Source: an uncultured Thermogutta sp.
GTDB lineage: Bacteria; Planctomycetota; Planctomycetia; Pirellulales; Thermoguttaceae
DNA length: 64,000 nt
Assembly: GCA_937128505.1 (NCBI GenBank)
Contig: CAKZMM010000113.1
Coordinates: 1-64,000, forward strand
Reading direction: 5' to 3'
The position numbers and the translations under genes are program-made. Below the pieces are notes generated by a model. The model had not been told where the DNA came from. It ran no database searches and worked only from the letters and a program-made list of their open reading frames with translations. This document shows positions 4,146 through 14,249 of the stretch, piece by piece (the stretch's first letter is position 1; each line of letters begins with the position of its first letter).

Positions 4146-5531
4146 ATGTCTTCAGATTCTTTGAAATCACATGCGGATAGCTTTTCGCCGCCGGCCGAGG
4201 CTCAACCGGCGGATTCGGGGGATATTCCGCCCCTGGAGCACAGGGTCAAGCAGTTCCCCCATCGGCCCGGGGTTTATTTGATGAAGGACCGGGCGGGCCG
4301 GGTCATCTATGTGGGCAAAGCCAAGGATTTGCGTCACCGGGTTTCCAGCTATTTTCTCAAGGCCGCGGCGGAAGATCCCCGCATCGCCCCTTTGCTTCGC
4401 GAATTGCACGACATCGAGTATCTGGAAACGGATAGTGAGGTCGATGCCCTGCTCGTGGAATCGCGGCTGATCAAAGATATTCAGCCCAAGTTCAATCGGG
4501 AACTGAAGGACGATAAGACCTTTCCCTATTTGGAAATTCACGTTCGCGAGGATTTTCCGCGGGTAGAGTTTACCCGAGAACCCAGATCGCGGGGCACGAA
4601 ACTATATGGGCCTTTCGCCAGTGCCGGGTCATTGCGCGGCGCCCTTCAGGTGCTCCAAAAAATCTTCAAGTTTCGCACGTGCTCGCTGGATATTCGGGCG
4701 GATGATCCCCGCTGGCGGTGGTTCCGGCCTTGTCTGCTGGCTTCGATCGATCAGTGCTCCGCGCCCTGCAATTTGCGGATTACCCGAGAAGAGTATCGGA
4801 AGGACATCCAGCGGCTTCTGCGTTTCTTGGAGGGCGGAAAGCGGGAACTGTTGCGGCAGTTGCGCGCGGAGATGATCGAAGCGGCTCAGCAGCGCCGCTA
4901 TGAAGAAGCGGCTCGGCTCCGCGACGAGATTCAGTTGTTGGAAACCCTCGATCAACGCGGCGAGCTGGAAACGCATCTCCAGCCGGAGGTTTTCCACGTG
5001 GATCCGCGTAAGGGGCTTGCCGGGCTAAAAAAAGTGCTCAAGCTCCCCAAGCAGCCGCGAACGATCGAGGGGTTGGATATTGCCCATCTCAGCGGAAGCG
5101 AAATGGTGGCAAGCCTGGTGCAATTCATCGATGGGCTTCCTTTCAAGCCGGGCTATAAACGGTATCGTATTCGCAGCGTGCAAGGGGTCGACGATTACGC
5201 GGCCATTCGCGAGGTGATTTGCCGGCGATTTCGTCGTCGCGGGATAGACGAGGAAGGGGAAGTTCTGCCCGATCTGCTTTTGATCGACGGAGGCAAAGGC
5301 CAGCTCCATGCCGCCCAGGAGGCCTTCGCGCAAGTGCAACTCGCCCCTCCGCAGCTTGTGGCGCTGGCTAAACGCGAAGAAGAGCTTTTCGTTCCCAGTC
5401 AGGACCAACCGTTGCGGTTAGGCCGCCATTCCTTCGCCTTGAGGCTTCTTCAGTATGTCCGCGACGAAGCCCACCGCTTTGCTCAGCATTATCATCATCT
5501 GCTTCGGCGCAAAAGCACTCTGGGCGAGTAA
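4146..5531 (+). CDS. uvrC: Short UvrC-type excinuclease subunit lacking the HhH domain
   Basis: UvrC makes both incisions in UvrABC nucleotide excision repair. The GIY-YIG nuclease is at residues 38-125 (GVYLMKD, IYVGKAKDLRHRV, Glu105 in VESRLIK, Asn117). A four-cysteine cluster (Cys179, 196, 204, 208) matches the Fe-S motif of the family. The UVR motif for UvrB contact is at about 240-270, and the RNase H-like nuclease follows with Asp311 (GLDIAHLSG), Asp381 (LLIDGGKGQ) and His443 (RDEAHRFA). The protein ends 18 residues later, at 461, where UvrC normally continues with tandem helix-hairpin-helix motifs (about 600 residues in all). I see no continuation in another frame downstream. No Shine-Dalgarno site is evident before this ATG. 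Identity is firm; full incision activity is uncertain. Confidence 0.92.
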   Translation: MSSDSLKSHADSFSPPAEAQPADSGDIPPLEHRVKQFPHRPGVYLMKDRAGRVIYVGKAKDLRHRVSSYFLKAAAEDPRIAPLLRELHDIEYLETDSEVDALLVESRLIKDIQPKFNRELKDDKTFPYLEIHVREDFPRVEFTREPRSRGTKLYGPFASAGSLRGALQVLQKIFKFRTCSLDIRADDPRWRWFRPCLLASIDQCSAPCNLRITREEYRKDIQRLLRFLEGGKRELLRQLRAEMIEAAQQRRYEEAARLRDEIQLLETLDQRGELETHLQPEVFHVDPRKGLAGLKKVLKLPKQPRTIEGLDIAHLSGSEMVASLVQFIDGLPFKPGYKRYRIRSVQGVDDYAAIREVICRRFRRRGIDEEGEVLPDLLLIDGGKGQLHAAQEAFAQVQLAPPQLVALAKREEELFVPSQDQPLRLGRHSFALRLLQYVRDEAHRFAQHYHHLLRRKSTLGE

Positions 5532-5645
5532 GTTGGCAGGAACACTGCAAGTTTACCAGTAGCTCCGGCTCAAGCCATCGAATGATTCTACCCACAACTT
5601 CTTGAAGCCAGTTCCCTTTGCCGATTTCCTTTTTTCCTTTGCCCT

Positions 5646-5682
5646 AAAAACGCCGCGGCCGCAGGACCGAAGTCCTGCGGCC
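5646..5682 (-). terminator. Terminator of the downstream DUF1559 gene
   Basis: Perfect 11-bp stem (5657-5667 with 5672-5682). Read on the minus strand the loop is the very stable C(UUCG)G tetraloop, and after GCGGCG comes TTTTT (5650-5646). It sits about 120 nt beyond the stop codon of the minus-strand gene at 5801. It may also slow transcription leaving uvrC from the other side. Confidence 0.8.
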
Positions 5683-5800
5683 TTGGCGCGTCGGGTAACA
5701 CAGCCTTGGCACCGAGAGGTGCTCAAGTGGGGAAGGTCACATGCTGCAACACGCTAACCGAACGCCTTAGATTGTTTGGAATTTGCTGCCGCGTCGACGA

Positions 5801-7168
5801 TTAGCCCTCATAGTTGAGCGGCTTGCCGGCATTGTTATTCCGGATGAACACACCATTAAACATCCGGAAAGGCTCCAGCTCGGTCGGCCCAGGGCGATAG
5901 CCGGTGGCGAAGTAGTCCTCATCTTCACCAAGGATGCCATCACCGTCCTCATCCCATACGGGGATCACGAACCCCGGGTTGAGGTAACCATCACCGTTGG
6001 CATCCTTGAATTCCTGAACGGAGCCGTCGGCCATCAGGATATTGCACACGCCACGGTGAACCGCATACCAGTCGCGGGTATCTTGCCGGTAGAAGTATTG
6101 ATCCTGGGGCGCGGTTTGCCCACCTTTTTGATAGTTATTAACCGGATTACCGTCGGCCTGGCCCATTGGAATCAGACCCGCCTCCGCATCCATCTGCATT
6201 TGAAGACCCTGATTATGGAGAAGCAAAGTCAATCGCGTATTCGGGCTATCAACATAGCCAGGGCCATCATTGAACGATTCGACCAAGCGGTCGCCACGGC
6301 GTCCCCAGACTTTGCCATTGGAATCGACCACATTCTGCGTGAGAATCGCTTCACGAACATCGCCCGGCCCTGCACAACCCAAAAGCGGGATCACGGAGCT
6401 GGCCAGGAGGGAGTTATCTAGATCGCGACGCGAAAGCGGACCTGTGGAATCTTCCATACCTTTGTACCTCCCTGTACCGAAGTTATGAAGAGTACCACTA
6501 GGCAATCGCGTTGAAACATCGCCGGCTCGTACAAACGGCATCGCGGTTGCGCCGGTACCTACCGTTTGGACCGCCAGCACCGGTTCCCCCCGAACCAGGA
6601 AATAGCTTGTCACATAGTTTGTGCTGTAACCGGTTTTCATGAGTTCATCCGCGATAAGCGCTGCCCGCGCCTCGGGTGTACCAGTATAGGTAAACGCACC
6701 CGTTTCATATGAATTCGAGCCCGGCGTGCCGCTTCCATTCCCTAGAAGAACGCACCGGCCCGCCGCCATCCGGCTCACTATGCATCCTTCAGCGGGATTG
6801 ACCGTCGCGGTTTGGCCGATTAGGTCGTTGAGCTTTTCGGAGGCCGTCATCGAGCTGCCCGGATCCAGCAGCATCGCCGGCTGGCAGATGTCGCCATTTA
6901 CCAGATCGGCCACCCAACCGTAAGTATCCACGCAACCATCGCGACGGAAGTCGTAAGCACCGCTACAGAACCGGCCTTCGGGGTCACGATCGGCATGGAT
7001 CTGGAACCCCAAGCCGAACTGCCGCAGGTTGCTCTGGCACGTGACGGCGCGGGCACGCTCCCGGGCGGCCTGAAGTGCCGGTAGCAGCAGGGCAATCAGG
7101 ATCGCGATGATCCCAATCACCACCAAAAGTTCGATCAACGTGAAACCTTTTTTCGCCTTGCGACTCAT
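5801..7168 (-). CDS. DUF1559 pilin-like protein
   Basis: A 455-residue member of the planctomycete DUF1559 family. The N-terminus is a type IV prepilin/pseudopilin leader: [27 protein letters not shown], cleaved after Gly8 with Glu at +5 (quoted here in pieces: KKG, then FTLIELLVV). The conserved [10 protein letters not shown] motif follows. Near the C-terminus is the H-X9-DG signature [12 protein letters not shown]. After it comes an aspartate/glycine-rich segment ([14 protein letters not shown]) that could bind calcium. It is probably exported and assembled by a type II secretion or pilus-like machine; the true role of the family is not established. Ribosome site aaaggag precedes the ATG. 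A paralogue lies upstream on the same strand. Confidence 0.88.
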
Positions 7169-7285
7169 GCGCTACAATCTCCTTTCGTGCCGAGTCTTAA
7201 ATTGCTCAAGGGCTGACTTTGCGATTTTACGCCCCCAAGCGGTCACCAAACCTTTCCGTTAACCGAAAACCGAAGCGACGTTTGC

Positions 7286-7370
7286 GGTGCCTTCTTTGAC
7301 AGGGGCCCGGCACCATGGGCCCACCAGTTTTCCGCCCCACTTGGGCGGAATCTCCAAGCCAAAGGGCTTG
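7286..7370 (-). other. Hairpin-rich spacer between the DUF1559 genes
   Basis: Four perfect pairings crowd 85 nt: GGTGCC/GGCACC (7286-7291, 7309-7314), GGGCCC/GGGCCC (7303-7308, 7317-7322), TTCCGCCC/GGGCGGAA (7330-7337, 7343-7350) and CAAGCC/GGCTTG (7355-7360, 7365-7370). The first two are mutually exclusive, so the RNA could switch shape. None has a T tract suited to a simple terminator on the minus strand. It would lie in the leader of the gene at 7168 and could set the ratio of the two gene products. No known riboswitch was recognised. Confidence 0.45.
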
Positions 7371-7435
7371 TCTTTTCGTGTGCAGCCTGTTACACTTCCT
7401 TTTGGCTGACCCGACGATTGCCGCTTGCTAGAAGG

Positions 7436-7451
7436 GGATCACCTCCTTTCT
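7436..7451 (-). promoter_or_regulatory. 16-nt extended Shine-Dalgarno-like element without an ORF
   Basis: The minus strand reads AGAAAGGAGGTGATCC, the full complement of the usual bacterial 16S rRNA 3' end. It is 88 nt past the stop of the upstream DUF1559 gene and about 270 nt before the next start. No ATG, GTG or TTG lies at a usable distance behind it. It could act as a ribosome standby site or protect an RNA end. This is not an rRNA gene fragment, because the match ends abruptly at this 16-mer. Confidence 0.5.
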
Positions 7452-7539
7452 CTCAGGTGGCAGCTGAGGGTTAAGTCCAAACCTTTCCGAACCGAGGCCT
7501 TTGCACCTTGGACGGGTGCAAGGGCCGTTTTATTGCCTC

Positions 7540-8736
7540 TTAGAACCGGCTCAAGCTAGGAACGCTAACGAAATCTTCCGGGGGAAGCTCCACCGTGCTG
7601 TCGGCAAATCCGTTGGCGGGATCCGCTTGAAAGCCGTTATTCAGATAGGCGTCGTTATTCTCATCCTTCCAACTCCGGACGCTGCCGTCGGCCATGAGGA
7701 TATTGGCAAAGCCGCGATGCAGCGGTGCAAAACCGCGGTAATCCTGAAGTGTGCGATTCCACAGGGCCCACCAGCCATTCGGGCCTTCTCGCGCTGTGTT
7801 GGGCGGCACCGTCAAGTAATCCATGGAGGGATTAACAACCGGTCCGCGAGTATACGCGAGGACGAGCGGAATCGATTGCTTGAAATCGCCGAAAGCCCGC
7901 TCGAGATATTGGCTCACGCGTCCATCACCCAAAAGGGGGATGAAACTACTGCTCACGTCGACCGAGGACAAACGATCGAGATGCAAGGGGCCGAAGGTGC
8001 ACGCGCGGGCGAGCGGCGAGGTCTCGCACCCGCCACCGAGACCTTGGAGGTTTCCGTCGCTTCCCAACTTGACGCCCGTTCGCACCAGGTACCAACTGGC
8101 CGTGTAATTAGTGTTGAAATGCTGGCGAAAGATTGCCTGAAAAACTAGTTCATCGCGGGCCGCACCAGGAGTTTGGAGGCTTTCCGTAGAGATGATTTGC
8201 TCGCACGGGTCGCGCCTTTGCGTGCCATCGGGCAAAGTTTCCGGAACGCGACCTTTATGATTAATTCCACAGGTCCAAGTGCTCGGATTGCCGGGCTGTT
8301 CGCTGGCCCAAGACGACACATCCAGGTTAAGAAGGTCGTTGTAGGTCTCGCTCAACAGCGCCTCATTGGAAGGGCAAAGCATCTGCCCCACCGGGGTACC
8401 ACTGCGGACAAGATCTGCCACCCAACCGATTGAGGTGACGCTGCCATCTCGCTGCCAATCGAAAGCCCCGGTGCACAGAAGTCCTTTGTGGGCCTGAGCA
8501 TGAGCGAGTAATGCGACCCCGATCTGCCGCAAGTTGGAGCTGCAATTTGTTTGCCGGCTTGCTTCCCGGGCGGAATTCAAGGCCGGCATCAGAAGCGCCA
8601 GCAAGATCGAGATCACCACGATGACCGTGAGCATTTCCACCAATGTAATTGCCCTTCTGGAAAGGCTCTTTGTGACGGCTTCTCGAATGTCTCGCGAAAG
8701 CGGTTTTTGGCGTGTTACCCGAGCACTGATTTTCAT
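7540..8736 (-). CDS. DUF1559 pilin-like protein with Ala at the cleavage site
   Basis: A 398-residue paralogue of the gene at 5801-7168. A longer, basic N-terminal region precedes the prepilin-like motif RRAITLVEMLTV, with Ala where Gly normally stands at -1 and Glu at +5. The hydrophobic helix, the motif TNCSSNLRQIG and the C-terminal H-X9-DG signature HRGFANILMADG follow. A strong ribosome site (gggggaggg) lies just before the ATG. It is the first gene behind two Pho-type promoters. Both DUF1559 genes are likely exported surface or pseudopilin components. Whether the Ala variant is processed by the standard prepilin peptidase is uncertain. Confidence 0.86.
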   Translation of the reverse strand: MKISARVTRQKPLSRDIREAVTKSLSRRAITLVEMLTVIVVISILLALLMPALNSAREASRQTNCSSNLRQIGVALLAHAQAHKGLLCTGAFDWQRDGSVTSIGWVADLVRSGTPVGQMLCPSNEALLSETYNDLLNLDVSSWASEQPGNPSTWTCGINHKGRVPETLPDGTQRRDPCEQIISTESLQTPGAARDELVFQAIFRQHFNTNYTASWYLVRTGVKLGSDGNLQGLGGGCETSPLARACTFGPLHLDRLSSVDVSSSFIPLLGDGRVSQYLERAFGDFKQSIPLVLAYTRGPVVNPSMDYLTVPPNTAREGPNGWWALWNRTLQDYRGFAPLHRGFANILMADGSVRSWKDENNDAYLNNGFQADPANGFADSTVELPPEDFVSVPSLSRF

Positions 8737-8913
8737 TTTCCCTCCCCCAAAAGTTCGGCTGCTCGCCCTCGATCTTTTACCCCCTGTTTGGTCCTGCCCT
8801 ATCTATGCTGGTTTACCTGCGACGTTTGAAAGCCACTCAGAGTTGATTTGGATTGGGTGGTTAACCAGCCGTGCCCTTTTTAGTTGCTTCAAAATGTTTT
8901 TGATTTGGTCAAC

Positions 8914-8936
8914 AAGGTTGCCTTTTCTGCAACCTT
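8914..8936 (-). other. Leader hairpin upstream of DUF1559 gene
   Basis: Perfect 8-bp stem AAGGTTGC/GCAACCTT with a 7-nt loop, inside the long (about 275 nt) untranslated leader expected from the promoter at 9018. No T tract follows on the minus strand. Confidence 0.4.
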
Positions 8937-9017
8937 ATGGATTTTGGATTTAGTATTTGGTTCGCTATCGCCTTTTTGCTGACCGATTTCTGATTTGTTC
9001 CTTTTTTACTCGCCCGG

Positions 9018-9071
9018 ATTGTAGCAGCCGCATGTTAAGGAATCGTTAGCGTTGTGTTAAAGTTTTGTTAG
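9018..9071 (-). promoter_or_regulatory. Pho-box-like promoter, proximal
   Basis: On the plus strand the hexamers TGTTAA, CGTTAG, TGTTAA and TGTTAG start at 9033, 9044, 9055 and 9066, exactly 11 bp apart. On the minus strand they read as CTAACA/TTAACA repeats. Nine nucleotides after the last one is TACAAT (9018-9023), a good -10 hexamer. Tandem TTAACA hexamers at 11-bp spacing are the known PhoP/PhoB-type operator, and the array taking the place of a -35 box is typical of activated Pho promoters. The first gene downstream is the DUF1559 protein at 8736. Confidence 0.75.
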
Positions 9072-9157
9072 AGTTTTCGATTTCCTTTTGACCTCTTACC
9101 GAGTATAGTGGAAGCGTGTTTGGCCGCGGAAATGGTGTCGTTGATTTCTATTGGGGT

Positions 9158-9183
9158 CTCGATTGTGTTTCTCGATTGTGTTT
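9158..9183. repeat. 13-nt tandem repeat between the two Pho-type promoters
   Basis: ctcgattgtgttt occurs twice in a row (9158-9170, 9171-9183), and a third related word (tgtcgattgcgtt) follows. Function unknown. The rest of 9072-9285 shows no ORF that I can support. Confidence 0.5.
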
Positions 9184-9285
9184 GTGGTGTCGATTGCGTT
9201 GCCGATTAACCCACGTGTTGTTAATTGACCTAACCGCCGATGCGATAGTCTTTTGACGCCCAGCTATCTCTTTCATTCGAGCGGC

Positions 9286-9339
9286 ATTTTAAAGGCCCTA
9301 TGTTAAGCGTTGATTAGGAAATTGTTAGAAATCTGTTAG
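9286..9339 (-). promoter_or_regulatory. Pho-box-like promoter, distal
   Basis: A second array: TGTTAA at 9301, a degenerate GATTAG at 9312, TGTTAG at 9323 and TGTTAG at 9334, again with exact 11-bp spacing. Again nine nucleotides separate the last repeat from a -10 hexamer, TAAAAT (9286-9291). The geometry is identical to the array at 9018-9071, 268 bp closer to the gene. The same strand and the same target gene are implied. Confidence 0.72.
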
Positions 9340-9620
9340 CTTCGCGAAATTGAGGCAAATTGAGGCTCGGAATTGTCGGCCGGTTAGTATTTGAACTTTA
9401 CGAGCATCGAGGCCTTGAGCTCAGTGAGAAGAACTGGGCAAAGAAAAGCAGAGCCACCTATAGTGCGCGATTAGTGTTCATCTATTCATATTCTGTACTT
9501 TTGTACATAGATTGTGCTGACCGATGGCGTTACCCGAAGACAGGAGTCCTCCTGTTATCCGGGAGAGTCATGTGGCCAGTTCCTGGCACCGAAGGAAAAA
9601 CGCCCTCAGAAAGAGCCGGT

Positions 9621-9653
9621 AAAAAGAAATGGGACGCCTTTTTCAGGCGTCCC
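9621..9653 (-). terminator. Terminator after the DUF4159 gene
   Basis: Nine-bp perfect stem GGGACGCCT/AGGCGTCCC (9631-9639, 9645-9653). Read on the minus strand it is followed by ATTTCTTTTT. It lies 110 nt past the stop codon at 9764 and separates this gene from the Pho-type promoters. Confidence 0.8.
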
Positions 9654-9763
9654 CGTGGTTTTCGGACTCGGATCAGTCTCGTTATTGGGACTTATCGGTG
9701 ATCGAGAGGTCGAGGCCACAAGGGCCGATTCGTGCTCGCCATTTGAGGGTGTGCAAACTTCTG

Positions 9764-11332
9764 TTAGTGCGTGACGGCATACACCAGGATGTTCGTCCCG
9801 ATTTTCAGGGCATCTTCATCCTGGATTCCGTAGCTATACGGATGGGGGAATTGCTCCCAACCGTTGCCGAGATCGAATCGGCTGTAGACCACCGCCAACC
9901 GCCCATCGAGCGAGATGCCCTCCAACTCGGGCGTCTCCAAAGGGCCAAAATCCTCGCGCACCCGAGGCGTGTATTCGACCCGATCGATGTCGAAGTGCAC
10001 ATGATAAATGGGATGATCCGGCGGCAACCGCTCCAGTTTGACATCGGGCAAAACCTTCGCGATTTCGCGTCGGAAAGCCATATCAAAAGCCACTCGGCCG
10101 CAGCAGGCATCCGCCACGAGCATGCCCCCGGCCTTTAAATACCGTTGGAGCCTGCCGCGGGATTCGTCATCCCAAACGAACTCGTGGTGCCCGGTCATGT
10201 AAAGCAGCGGATAGGTGGCCGCTTGCGGATCTTTGAGGGAGACATTCTGACGCTTGAATTTGACGCCCAGGGTCGAATTATCCCGAGCAAATTTCAGCAG
10301 GTTATGGACCGCGGACGGATCGGGATCCCAGTCTCCCAGGTGAATGAGCTGGGCAAAGACGAAATCATCGCGGCTTGGGGCTTCAGCCTCGAAATACACC
10401 TTTGTGGTGCTGAGGAACCGCCCAAGCTGATAGCTGCCCAGAATGTATGTGATTAAATTCGCCCCGATTTGCCGCGCTTGATCGATTACCACCCGCAGTC
10501 CGCGGGGATGTTCATGCCCATCCCAACCGCACGTCAAATCGGCCGGGGAGAAAATCACGCCGGTCCGGCAACCAAAATCAATTCCCTCCAAAACCGGCTC
10601 GCCTGTGTACGTGGAGCCGTCGCCCTTTTTATATTCGATCATTCCCAACTTGTAGTAAGTCGCATAGATGGGGTCTTCCGGCGCCAGTTTCCGAAGGGGC
10701 CGACCCGGGAAAATCAGCTCCATTTCCCGCCGGAAACTCTCCGCAAAGTCGTTCCAGCCGCAACAGGCATCGCCGATGATCGTACCGCCATCCATCACAT
10801 ACCGGGCCAACTGCTGACGAACCGGAGCGGTAAGCTCGAAATGGTTGTGACCCGCGAAAAGAAGTGCCGGCAATTCCCGCGGATCAAACGAGAAGTGGGC
10901 AAAATCCGCATCGACCGAGCGGTAATGAATTCCCAGTTTCTCATTCGTCCAGGCTAAAAGCGTATTGATATCCGCCGGATCGGTCATCCAGTCGCGATAC
11001 ATGGTCCGTTTACCATCGCGGGTGATCCAGCGGACCGGCCCCATGGCCATTTTCCCCACCAAAGCCGGCGGACTGGGCGGACGTTTTCTTTCCGACCGCC
11101 GCAGTGGCGTAACCGGCAGCGGCAGCGGCGGAAAAGCCTCGCCCCCGGTGCGATGCTGTTTCTCAGCCTGAGGCGGCGGGCCGCAGTCGATCGGTCCCGA
11201 ATTATCCTGACCGAAAACCAAGGCCGGAATATTCCAGCCGGTCGTTCCGGCCGCACATCCTAATCCGAGTTTTTCGATAAATTTTCTACGAGATAAGCCC
11301 ATAAGAGATGCCTTCGCTTCTGCTGCCGTCAT
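9764..11332 (-). CDS. Exported protein with two DUF4159 domains
   Basis: A 522-residue protein starting at the ATG with ribosome site ggaaggaga upstream; the frame opens further up but this start gives a proper signal. The N-terminus is a Tat-type signal (GLSRRKFIEKLGLGCAAG) and export to the periplasm is likely. Two related halves follow, each with the DUF4159 pattern: a 'RTMYRDWMTDP'-like or 'FVFAQLIHLGDWDP' opening, an LLFAGHNHFELT/LLYMTGHHEFVW strand, and a glycine-rich DGGTIIGDACCGW or AGGMLVADACCGR motif. Each half ends in a GANLITYILG/GTNILVYAVTH strand. DUF4159 resembles ThuA/class I glutamine amidotransferase folds; its function is unknown. The DACCG cysteine pair is kept in both copies. 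Confidence 0.85.
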   Translation of the reverse strand: MTAAEAKASLMGLSRRKFIEKLGLGCAAGTTGWNIPALVFGQDNSGPIDCGPPPQAEKQHRTGGEAFPPLPLPVTPLRRSERKRPPSPPALVGKMAMGPVRWITRDGKRTMYRDWMTDPADINTLLAWTNEKLGIHYRSVDADFAHFSFDPRELPALLFAGHNHFELTAPVRQQLARYVMDGGTIIGDACCGWNDFAESFRREMELIFPGRPLRKLAPEDPIYATYYKLGMIEYKKGDGSTYTGEPVLEGIDFGCRTGVIFSPADLTCGWDGHEHPRGLRVVIDQARQIGANLITYILGSYQLGRFLSTTKVYFEAEAPSRDDFVFAQLIHLGDWDPDPSAVHNLLKFARDNSTLGVKFKRQNVSLKDPQAATYPLLYMTGHHEFVWDDESRGRLQRYLKAGGMLVADACCGRVAFDMAFRREIAKVLPDVKLERLPPDHPIYHVHFDIDRVEYTPRVREDFGPLETPELEGISLDGRLAVVYSRFDLGNGWEQFPHPYSYGIQDEDALKIGTNILVYAVTH

Positions 11333-11700: not shown

Positions 11701-13668
11701 CTACCAATATCGCTCTAACAACAATCGGTAGTGCGCTTGCAGAGTTTCTTCCTCTAAAACACCTTCGTAAATGGCCAGTTCGTCGATAGCTCCCGGCCAG
11801 GGATACGCATGGGCGAGATTCGCTTGAAAGCCCTTACCGACCCCTAACGGCCCTTTTGCCAAGCTGCCGGGGACCAGCGTCTCCGCAACAAGCCTTTGCA
11901 AGCGAGCTTCCGACCCATCGAGGGGACCGCAATAAACATTCACTTTGACTCCCTCGGGTACCGTAGCCACAGTTACCGCCACGTAATACCACTGACCGAA
12001 AAGTAGGCGAATGCCGCTTTCTAACCACTGGCTATTGGCGTCGAAAAGGTGAAGCAAACGTCCCTCTCCATCGGCGACCACCCAAAACGAGCACTGATCG
12101 GCGCTTGCTCGAGTTCCCACCGCAACACATGTCGCCTGGGGGTCGCGTTCAGCGGGGGGATCCATTCGCAGGAGGAGCTCTACGGTCAGCGCCCTGGGCG
12201 GCTCAAAATCGCCCAAGGTTTGGAGGGCCACCCCCTGAGTGTTGCCCGATCGCACTCCCCGATAGAAGCGCACCGCACGAGTGCTACTATCCAAACCTCG
12301 CTCTTGATAATCAACGGCTCCCCCGCCGCTGCCTCCAAACATCACGACCTCTGCAAGGTGTAGCCCACCCCGCCGATCTAACCTTCGCTCCGACGAACTC
12401 CACCCCTCAAAAGGAAAGTGGTGACGTAATCGCGGATCATTCCGCACCGCCTGCCTAAAGCGTGCCACGCACACCGGCCCATCCAAGCTAGGCCATGGAT
12501 CGAGACGAAATTTCGCGGCCAAGACGTTCAACTTACCGTCGCGGTGCTCGATTCGGAGGGCCTGACCGGCCGATAAGATCAGATTCTTTACCGCCTCATC
12601 ATCCGCCAGCAAGCTCGTTTTCCGCTTTTCAGGTTGGTTCCAGTTCACGATGGCAACCGATTCGCAAGTGCTCGGAATATTCCGCCCGCCATCGTCGGCA
12701 CAACCGGGAAGATCTTCCGCGGCAAGGCAACGACCGCTCATCAGTACGCTTTTCGCCAAGAAAGCGGAGGGCAAGGCCCCTTCCCCTGAAGCGGAGGGAT
12801 CGGGGACCGATATCGCGATTTCCACCTTACCTTCCAGACAGTGAATTTCTGTCCACTCGTCTGCCACATGAACCCCAAATGAGGTGCCGCGATCGATGAT
12901 TCGGGCAAACGGTGTTTCAACGACAAAATGCGGCTTCCCGACCGGCACCTGCACGAAGGCTGTTCCCTTATTCAACGCGACGCATGAACCGGCAAGCGGC
13001 ACCAACTCCGCAGGACCTTCCACCGCCATTCGGACCCCGCTGGCAAAACGCATGCGGATGGAACCGGTCTCCAACCGACACGCCCGCCTGCCGGGTAGGG
13101 GTATCGCCCTCAGTTGGGCGAAAGCACTTTCACCTGGATGATCACTATTCCCAGAGTCGTCGGGCGAGCATTCCACCAGATTCACCAGCTCCCATTCCGC
13201 ACCCGCCACCTCCTCAACCCAAGCCACCGAGGTTGATCCACCGGTCTCGGCTAGGCGAAGAGGCGAATTGTTTGTCGACTGTCCCTGCGGGATCGTGGTT
13301 CCCCCGGATCGCCACCCCAACAAGTGCGCAAAACCGCCCCGCCAAAGCCCCCACCCAACCAGGAGAACTGCGGTGGCCAAACCGAGCCATACCGCCGACT
13401 TGCGAAGGTAATATCCGGTAGTTAAAGACTCCCGACGTACGGAGGGTTGCGGCAAGTGCCACAAATTCGCCTTCAAAAGCTCCTCGGAGGACTGCCAATA
13501 AAGCTCGCCATGAATCGCCAAATATTCCAGAAAAAGTCGTCGTGCCCCCGGGGAGTTTCGCAGAGCAAACTCCAACCGAGCCACACCCGCTGCATCCAAG
13601 ACTCCTTCGCAAAGCTGCGAGGCCAGGTGTGCAACTTCTTCCGAGTTAAAAGAATCTTGCGTTTTCAT
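11701..13668 (-). CDS. FecR-domain membrane protein with C-terminal LamG domain
   Basis: A 655-residue protein whose ATG overlaps the sigma-factor stop codon (ATGA), so the two are translationally coupled; earlier starts in the frame are unlikely. The N-terminal 85 residues are a cytoplasmic anti-sigma-like segment (LEFALRNSPGARRLFLEYLAIHGELYW). One membrane helix follows at about residues 92-109. Outside it lie a FecR-like domain (GPAELVPLAGSCVALNKG, then FARIIDRGTSFGVHV) and a C-terminal concanavalin-A/LamG-like domain (ALTVELLLRMD, QWYYVAVTVATVPEG, GAIDELAIYEGVL). The layout fits a planctomycete ECF-linked anti-sigma sensor that recognises an external ligand, perhaps a glycan. Function is inferred. 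Confidence 0.87.
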   Translation of the reverse strand: MKTQDSFNSEEVAHLASQLCEGVLDAAGVARLEFALRNSPGARRLFLEYLAIHGELYWQSSEELLKANLWHLPQPSVRRESLTTGYYLRKSAVWLGLATAVLLVGWGLWRGGFAHLLGWRSGGTTIPQGQSTNNSPLRLAETGGSTSVAWVEEVAGAEWELVNLVECSPDDSGNSDHPGESAFAQLRAIPLPGRRACRLETGSIRMRFASGVRMAVEGPAELVPLAGSCVALNKGTAFVQVPVGKPHFVVETPFARIIDRGTSFGVHVADEWTEIHCLEGKVEIAISVPDPSASGEGALPSAFLAKSVLMSGRCLAAEDLPGCADDGGRNIPSTCESVAIVNWNQPEKRKTSLLADDEAVKNLILSAGQALRIEHRDGKLNVLAAKFRLDPWPSLDGPVCVARFRQAVRNDPRLRHHFPFEGWSSSERRLDRRGGLHLAEVVMFGGSGGGAVDYQERGLDSSTRAVRFYRGVRSGNTQGVALQTLGDFEPPRALTVELLLRMDPPAERDPQATCVAVGTRASADQCSFWVVADGEGRLLHLFDANSQWLESGIRLLFGQWYYVAVTVATVPEGVKVNVYCGPLDGSEARLQRLVAETLVPGSLAKGPLGVGKGFQANLAHAYPWPGAIDELAIYEGVLEEETLQAHYRLLLERYW

Positions 13669-14243
13669 CCCAGCGAATCTGCCGCTAACCGGCGGCGAAT
13701 GCACTCCAACAAGAACATTCTGGCCCGATGCAAAGCCCTTCGTGCTGCCTCAACGGTTTTGCCGACGGCATGCGCCGCCGATTGAATGGTTGCGTCCGGT
13801 GCGTAGCGTGCCAGGACCAACCGCCGCAGGGGTTCGCGCAGCTTTTGGAGACAATACGCCAGTGCCTCCCGCCGCCTCTCCGCTTGCCCGAGCAACTCAC
13901 CGGCGTCGTGTGCCAGCACTTCCAACACTTCCTCGCTGAGTAATCCTTCTGATTTCGACCGGCGGCTTCGGAACTTTAGAACTTCGTAATACGCGACTTT
14001 ACACGCCCAGCGGAGAAAATCCGTCTGCGGGTCAAACTCATCAAATTTCCGCCATAACACCAAATTGGTTTCCTGGAGGATATCTTCCGCGTCCACCGGC
14101 TGGTGAATCAGGCTCAAAATGTAAAGAAACAACTTGCGCTGAACACTTGCCAAAAGTTTTGCGAAACGTTCGACTTTATTCCCCAGGTCCCGGGACTCGG
14201 GAGATCCGTTCGGCGTTTCGTTCCCAATAGGCGGCTCTTGCAT
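13665..14243 (-). CDS. ECF-type RNA polymerase sigma factor
   Basis: A 192-residue sigma-70 family protein of the Rhodopirellula/Verrucomicrobium type. Region 2 is at FLYILSLIHQPVDAEDILQE and FDPQTDFLRWACKVAYYEV, including the DAEDILQET core-binding motif. Region 4 is the helix-turn-helix LRRLVLARYAPDATIQSAAH to VEAARRALHRARMFLLECIR. The ATG at 14243 is chosen over a TTG two codons earlier. It is co-translated with the FecR/LamG protein through an ATGA overlap, which makes that protein its likely regulator. The target promoters are not recognisable by eye. Confidence 0.92.
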   Translation of the reverse strand: MQEPPIGNETPNGSPESRDLGNKVERFAKLLASVQRKLFLYILSLIHQPVDAEDILQETNLVLWRKFDEFDPQTDFLRWACKVAYYEVLKFRSRRSKSEGLLSEEVLEVLAHDAGELLGQAERRREALAYCLQKLREPLRRLVLARYAPDATIQSAAHAVGKTVEAARRALHRARMFLLECIRRRLAADSLG

Positions 14244-14249
14244 GAACAA

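Follow-up and report, generated by a model that had tools for sequence, protein, structure and literature searches.

Two promoters upstream of a pair of pilin-like genes in an uncultured Thermogutta sp. are likely (with a probability of roughly 0.86) to be tandem PhoB-activated promoters of a conserved pilin-like gene cluster. They are referred to here as A and B and lie within a stretch of 64,000 nucleotides, the window. Each promoter is composed of a Pho-box-type array of hexamers and a −10 element. A first-pass annotation of the window had proposed that phosphate starvation controls the two DUF1559 genes downstream; this is supported at the level of sequence, in the absence of binding or expression data. 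The scope is probably wider than was stated there, since the sequence data point to a PhoB-type regulon that includes a conserved pilin-like cluster and extends beyond the two promoters. The relevant features of the window are as follows.

9071-9033, minus strand: array A, CTAACA N5 TTAACA N5 CTAACG N5 TTAACA, Pho-box-type
9023-9018, minus strand: −10 element of promoter A, TACAAT, 9 nt downstream of array A
9339-9301, minus strand: array B, CTAACA N5 CTAACA N5 CTAATC N5 TTAACA, Pho-box-type
9291-9286, minus strand: −10 element of promoter B, TAAAAT, 9 nt downstream of array B
8737..9011, minus strand: 5' leader of about 275 nt if transcribed from promoter A, or about 543 nt if from promoter B; extent inferred
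7540..8736, minus strand: g1, DUF1559 protein with a prepilin-like N-terminus, 398 aa
5801..7168, minus strand: g2, DUF1559 protein with a prepilin N-terminal methylation motif, 455 aa

PhoB/PhoP-type promoters are expected to carry at least two direct repeats at 11-bp pitch; here, each site has four. They are also expected to have an array that ends at a fixed short distance before the −10 element, in place of a −35 element. This distance is 9 nt in A, in B and in three further promoters elsewhere in the genome. Pitch and gap are exact in both arrays, and this geometry, like the arrays themselves, is read directly from the DNA. Six of the eight hexamers are of the (C/T)TAACA type, the deviants being CTAACG in A and CTAATC in B. 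The initial description, two sets of four hexamers spaced by 11 bp and each nine nucleotides from a −10 element, holds at both sites; its statement that all eight read TGTTAA or TGTTAG on the plus strand is correct for six only, as 9044 is CGTTAG and 9312 is GATTAG. Site B is located 268 bp further upstream than site A. Transcription is predicted to start near 9011 from promoter A and near 9279 from promoter B.

A chance origin of the two arrays can be rejected. With up to three mismatches, the tetrad has three matches in the window, of which two are sites A and B and the third is a shifted register; 100 dinucleotide shuffles of the window yielded none. Across the whole genome (5.58 Mb) there are five matches, corresponding to four sites, and two for the reversed-pattern control. 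When the array is combined with the 9-nt gap and a TANNNT element, eight matches are found, which represent five promoters, against one for the control. Looser patterns are not enriched: the exact pentamer triple alone gives two matches against five for its control, and the tetrad without a −10 element gives 33 against 32 in 59 relatives (summed from tabulated counts). Such loose-motif counts cannot tell signal from chance, because the reversed controls are just as frequent, and they were discarded as evidence. It is the position of the −10 element and the identity of the downstream genes that discriminate. Among 25 unique tetrad sites, collected from this genome and from same-family loci without requiring a −10 element, 12 have TANNNT at offset 9, compared with seven occurrences at the other 23 offsets combined.

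Besides A and B, the five promoters of this genome comprise three on other contigs.

Contig C19, 2701-2754: promoter ahead of a lipoprotein gene
Contig C156, 391-444: promoter ahead of a DUF1559 gene
Contig C164, 6638-6680: promoter ahead of the pstSCAB operon, 988 nt before the pstS ORF

The products of the C164 operon match models for PstS, PstC, PstA and PstB, each over the cut-off of its best model. This operon fulfils a further expectation for PhoB/PhoP-type promoters, namely that the motif is shared with phosphate genes of the same genome. Its site is a modest one, with just two perfect hexamers, a weak third and a matrix score of 19.8. Absence of the pattern before the genome's own phosphate genes had been named in advance as grounds for refutation. 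These grounds are not met, as the pattern is present before the pst operon. No such site is found upstream of the phoB (contig C119) and phoU (contig C59) genes. The DUF1559 protein encoded on C156 is 72-73% identical to proteins from genomes G026 and G115 whose genes also carry the promoter. About 35 other DUF1559 genes of the same genome are without a promoter of this kind.

The relationship with phosphate promoters was also examined with a stricter matrix, trained on 16 pst/phoB promoters from other genomes only. Site A scores 44.6, site B 41.1, and the sites on C19 and C156 score 43.8 and 37.7, respectively. The highest pst promoter reaches 46.7 with the same matrix, but belongs to the training set. 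In the regions upstream of g1 and its orthologues, the sense strand outscores all three controls (antisense, reversed and complemented) in 17 of 18 cases, this genome included; the g1 gene of G062 fails the strand control, and G063 was excluded because a contig end cuts off the upstream region. The exact geometry of 9 nt and TANNNT is found in six of the 17 other g1 upstream regions (G115, G064, G070, G032, G029 and G007). In the remaining 11, the best array has no TANNNT at 9 nt, and the arrays are looser. Shuffling returned p ≤ 0.012 in 14 of these 17 regions. Since local base composition was judged to inflate the p-values, they were set aside, and the strand and reversal controls were relied upon instead. 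A matrix made from the non-pst sites of this genome finds a significant site in just 12 of 23 scored pstS upstream regions; these derive from 30 loci, seven of which had no recognised ORF, and the genome's own pst site falls outside the stretch used. The sharing of the motif with pst/phoB promoters is an observation at the level of sequence.

The survey of sites was extended to 119 genomes of one family, inferred to be the Thermoguttaceae on the basis that three members match named contigs of Thermogutta and of a 'Blastopirellula marina' metagenome bin. Outside the genome under study, the array plus −10 pattern is matched 82 times and its control 33 times. The control often finds matches in g9, an AT-rich genus; without this genus, the counts are 34 and 6, respectively. 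A total of 66 distinct sites, own ones included, were annotated with their target genes; six were omitted (four satellite-like repeats in G131 and two sites in G130). The targets are pstS (13), pstC (10), phoB (6), metallophosphoesterases (7), a PHP protein (1), DUF1559 proteins (18, of which 15 are outside this genome), a lipoprotein (1), other genes (3) and none (7). Hence, pstS, pstC or phoB together account for 29 of 66 sites, and phosphoesterases for 8 of 66. Target calling was lenient, with up to three ORFs within 1050 nt permitted, and the DUF1559 ORFs at loci L114 and L127 are 496 and 634 nt away. A Pfam check of nine targets confirmed DUF1559 proteins in five relatives, two metallophosphoesterases and the one PHP protein. 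If a density of 0.85 genes per kb is assumed, DUF1559 genes make up approximately 0.5 to 1.6% of all genes in nine genomes of the family. Their 18 of 66 is far over this base rate, with binomial probabilities of 4e-21 at 1% and 7e-13 at 3%; the figures are uncorrected for genome relatedness, and independence is overstated. Two genomes of the same genus have no match to the pattern at up to two mismatches. In other planctomycete classes, all three exact matches are ahead of pstS-like genes.

Several additional arrays came to light in this survey. At L047:1-1740 (G036), the gene that a Pho-box-like array faces encodes 580 aa and matches glycosyltransferase family 4 in the C-terminal half of its product; a role in membrane lipid remodelling under phosphate starvation is conceivable. 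Genomes of genus g9 (e.g. L121-L124 and L137-L139) contain several copies each of a variant array, built around the near-constant core TTAATATGTACTTAA, which stands before DUF1559 and metallophosphoesterase genes and might constitute a second class of promoter or one that is mobile. Finally, G131 contigs C287, C316, C318, C363, C396 and C462 (L140, L141) harbour a satellite-like repeat of 11 bp, CTAACACCTGT, whose pitch mimics that of a Pho box. At the two loci examined it has neither the −10 geometry nor a gene on the same strand, and this many-register site was rejected as a promoter and classed as an 11-bp satellite.

Both g1 and g2 encode members of the DUF1559 family (PF07596; 56.3 and 62 bits, cut-off 23.3), with the match confined to approximately the first 55 of 268 profile positions. 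The H-X9-DG model TIGR04294 is matched at 19.0 bits by g1 (cut-off 19) and at 21.9 bits by g2. The two proteins share 30% identity. The g2 protein also matches PF07963 at 33.1 bits, and so has the prepilin cleavage/methylation motif followed by a hydrophobic helix. The g1 protein itself is not listed for this family; its 64% identical orthologue is, with 23.7 bits (cut-off 21.2). Predicted structures are unreliable, with mean pLDDT values of 33.5 for g1 and 32.1 for g2 (two sequences each). The sequence GGGGGAGGG is found 3 nt ahead of the g1 ATG, within the 5' leader. An Rfam scan of 5500-9800 detected no family in the promoter region or leader, and a single sub-threshold match at 7445-7517. 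The suggestion in the first-pass annotation that the promoters might also drive a leader RNA is unsupported, and phosphate control by such an RNA was rejected. No plasmid match was obtained for the promoter region. Elsewhere on the minus strand of the window, an ORF for an ECF-like sigma factor (13665-14249) is followed by one of 667 aa (11701-13704); judged by appearance only, this could be an anti-sigma/FecR-LamG type planctomycete pair.

Orthologues of g1 are present in 18 of the 118 other family genomes. In 14 of the 18, g2 is located within about 4 kb on the same contig, and in nine the two genes are adjacent on one strand. The closest orthologue (64% identity) is that of G115, where g1 and g2 are followed, in order, by genes for a 218-aa protein (opposite strand), a lipoprotein, a DUF1573 protein and a PilM-like protein with a zinc ribbon. 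In the genome under study, the lipoprotein gene lies at the beginning of C19, and the genes for the DUF1573 and PilM-like proteins lie at that of C155. The cluster is split here, and its lipoprotein half on C19 probably continues on C155, although this adjacency is an inference. Of the 119 genomes, 21 encode the PilM-like protein, and 17 have it together with g1 (3.4 expected); in 13 of these 17, both genes are on one contig within 8.2 kb. Two same-genus genomes have neither g1 nor the PilM-like gene. The PilM family PF11104 (cut-off 27) is matched by the C155 protein with 40 bits and by those of G064, G007 and G035 with 88.9, 101.9 and 78.8 bits; the G115 protein, at 15.8 bits, does not reach the cut-off. 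Further promoters of the same kind (score at least 16) stand before the lipoprotein gene or another member of the cluster in G060, G066, G069, G020, G032 and on C19. The g1-g2 cluster is found near pst or phoBR genes in G007, G017, G035 and G063, and in G065 the PilM-like gene is immediately upstream of phoB. Conservation of the cluster and the co-occurrence of its members are shown by these comparisons.

By inference, the combination of PilM with prepilins suggests a structure of pilus- or pseudopilus-like type. The scanned cluster proteins (G115, G060, G035, G007 and those on C19/C155) include no recognisable secretin, ATPase or platform protein, and a type II secretion locus proper was rejected on this criterion. 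The gene for the 218-222 aa protein (L040:2922-3590, L262:916-1572) adjoins the lipoprotein gene on the opposite strand both here and in G115; the protein has an N-terminal membrane helix and a coiled coil, and matches no family over cut-off. In G070 (contig C273, L286:770-1300), four Pho-box-like promoters are found in 530 bp, and all of them face the contig end below the lipoprotein gene.

The genome encodes a single protein with a Trans_reg_C domain, the DNA-binding domain of OmpR/PhoB-type regulators. Its best NCBIfam model is TIGR02154 (PhoB), at 249.9 bits and under the cut-off of 296.2, and its closest solved chains include BaeR, MtrA and RegX3. That there is one such regulator is shown by the sequence data; PhoB binding, induction by low phosphate and joint transcription of g1 and g2 are inferred. 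In the proposed mechanism, phosphate starvation would lead to phosphorylation of this sole PhoB/OmpR-type regulator. By analogy with E. coli PhoB, the phosphorylated protein would occupy the four repeats of 11-bp pitch, which replace the −35 box, in a head-to-tail arrangement and would recruit RNA polymerase to the −10 element located 9 nt downstream. Promoters A and B would then drive g1 and g2, a DUF1559 prepilin-like pair predicted to belong to a PhoB-controlled Thermoguttaceae cluster with lipoprotein, DUF1573 and zinc-ribbon PilM-like proteins. The products may form a pilus- or pseudopilus-like envelope structure that aids the gain of phosphate.

Of the alternative explanations, the one that survives best is that PhoB binds here but represses, or that one promoter is a relic and only the other is active. 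In its favour, the closest orthologue, in G115, has a single strong promoter before g1, and site B is 268 bp further up. This explanation is nevertheless unlikely, as both arrays retain the activator geometry to the −10 element that is found at pst promoters. Alternatively, a different regulator, either another response regulator or an unrelated DNA-binding protein, might read a similar repeat, and the link to phosphate would be incidental. OmpR-family regulators besides PhoB do read direct repeats (KdpE, PMC3264566), and the PhoB homologue falls short of the curated cut-off for PhoB. Against this, the genome has only one Trans_reg_C protein, the same motif is found ahead of pstS, pstC and phoB, and a matrix from pst/phoB promoters alone places the window sites at the top; we regard this explanation as very improbable. 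That the DUF1559 targets reflect chance, arising from abundant DUF1559 genes and a loose motif search, draws on the equal tetrad and control counts in relatives (33 vs 32) and the frequent control matches in g9, but is made highly improbable by the 18 of 66 DUF1559 targets against a base rate of about 1% (uncorrected for genome relatedness) and by orthologous promoters before orthologous genes across genera.

The preferred reading, tandem PhoB-activated promoters, can be taken further. Thermoguttaceae may possess a dedicated phosphate-starvation apparatus of pilus- or pseudopilus-like type, with DUF1559 prepilins, a surface lipoprotein, a DUF1573 anchor and a zinc-ribbon PilM, switched on by PhoB together with pst; and some planctomycete DUF1559 paralogues may be condition-specific pilin-like subunits, one set per stress. 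Taken jointly, these two propositions are slightly more doubtful than credible.

Few protein families of planctomycetes are as large as DUF1559, the function of which is unknown. Rhodopirellula baltica has 74 paralogues (PF07596; PMC2754498), and Planctopirus limnophila has a group of 68, two of which are essential (PMC10632474). In the sections of these papers that bear on DUF1559, the family is either linked to salt and cold shock or given no association, and phosphate control is not mentioned. No phosphate link was found in the sections bearing on DUF1559 of the open-access literature searched, nor any work that combines the Pho regulon, PhoB and pseudopilins; searches on planctomycetes, Pho box and PhoB returned only work on other organisms. 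Such control of DUF1559 proteins, of which the first-pass annotation knew no description, appears undescribed within this literature. To our knowledge, no earlier handle on DUF1559 function has been as concrete as a defined signal, a regulator and a small conserved cluster; the promoters would tie the family to phosphate starvation, an inference from sequence.

The promoters themselves resemble several known systems. The PhoB boxes of E. coli are head-to-tail repeats of 11-bp pitch, 10 bp before a −10 element of the form TAN3T/A (PMC1906773; reviewed in PMC4415409). Pitch, closeness to the −10 element and location before pst and pho genes are alike; in contrast, the repeats here are (C/T)TAACA rather than CTGTCAT, four in number, 9 nt from the −10 element, and have pilin-like targets. 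The hexamer is nearest to the cyanobacterial SphR (PhoB) box CTTAACCT, with at least three repeats of 11-bp pitch and a CTTAAC core (PMC1906773), although the last bases differ. The targets differ too; those given for SphR are genes for phosphate transport, phosphatases and nucleases. The PhoP box of Bacillus subtilis is TT(A/C)ACA at 11 bp. This organism is among those with similar Pho-box features (PMC4415409); hexamer and pitch are alike, while organism, regulator and targets differ. At the level of function, phosphate starvation in Caulobacter is connected, through T2SS/ElpS, with both a pseudopilus machine and a lipoprotein at the surface (PMC2996285). Together with Hxc of Pseudomonas, likewise a type II secretion system of phosphate starvation, it resembles what is proposed here. 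The cluster described here differs from both in having DUF1559 prepilins, DUF1573 and zinc-ribbon PilM-like proteins, and no secretin, ATPase or platform protein among the proteins scanned. In summary, the promoter is of a known kind and its pilin-like target set is new as far as the literature searched shows; it supplies a Pho box for Planctomycetota, with exact matches before pstS-like genes in other classes of the phylum.
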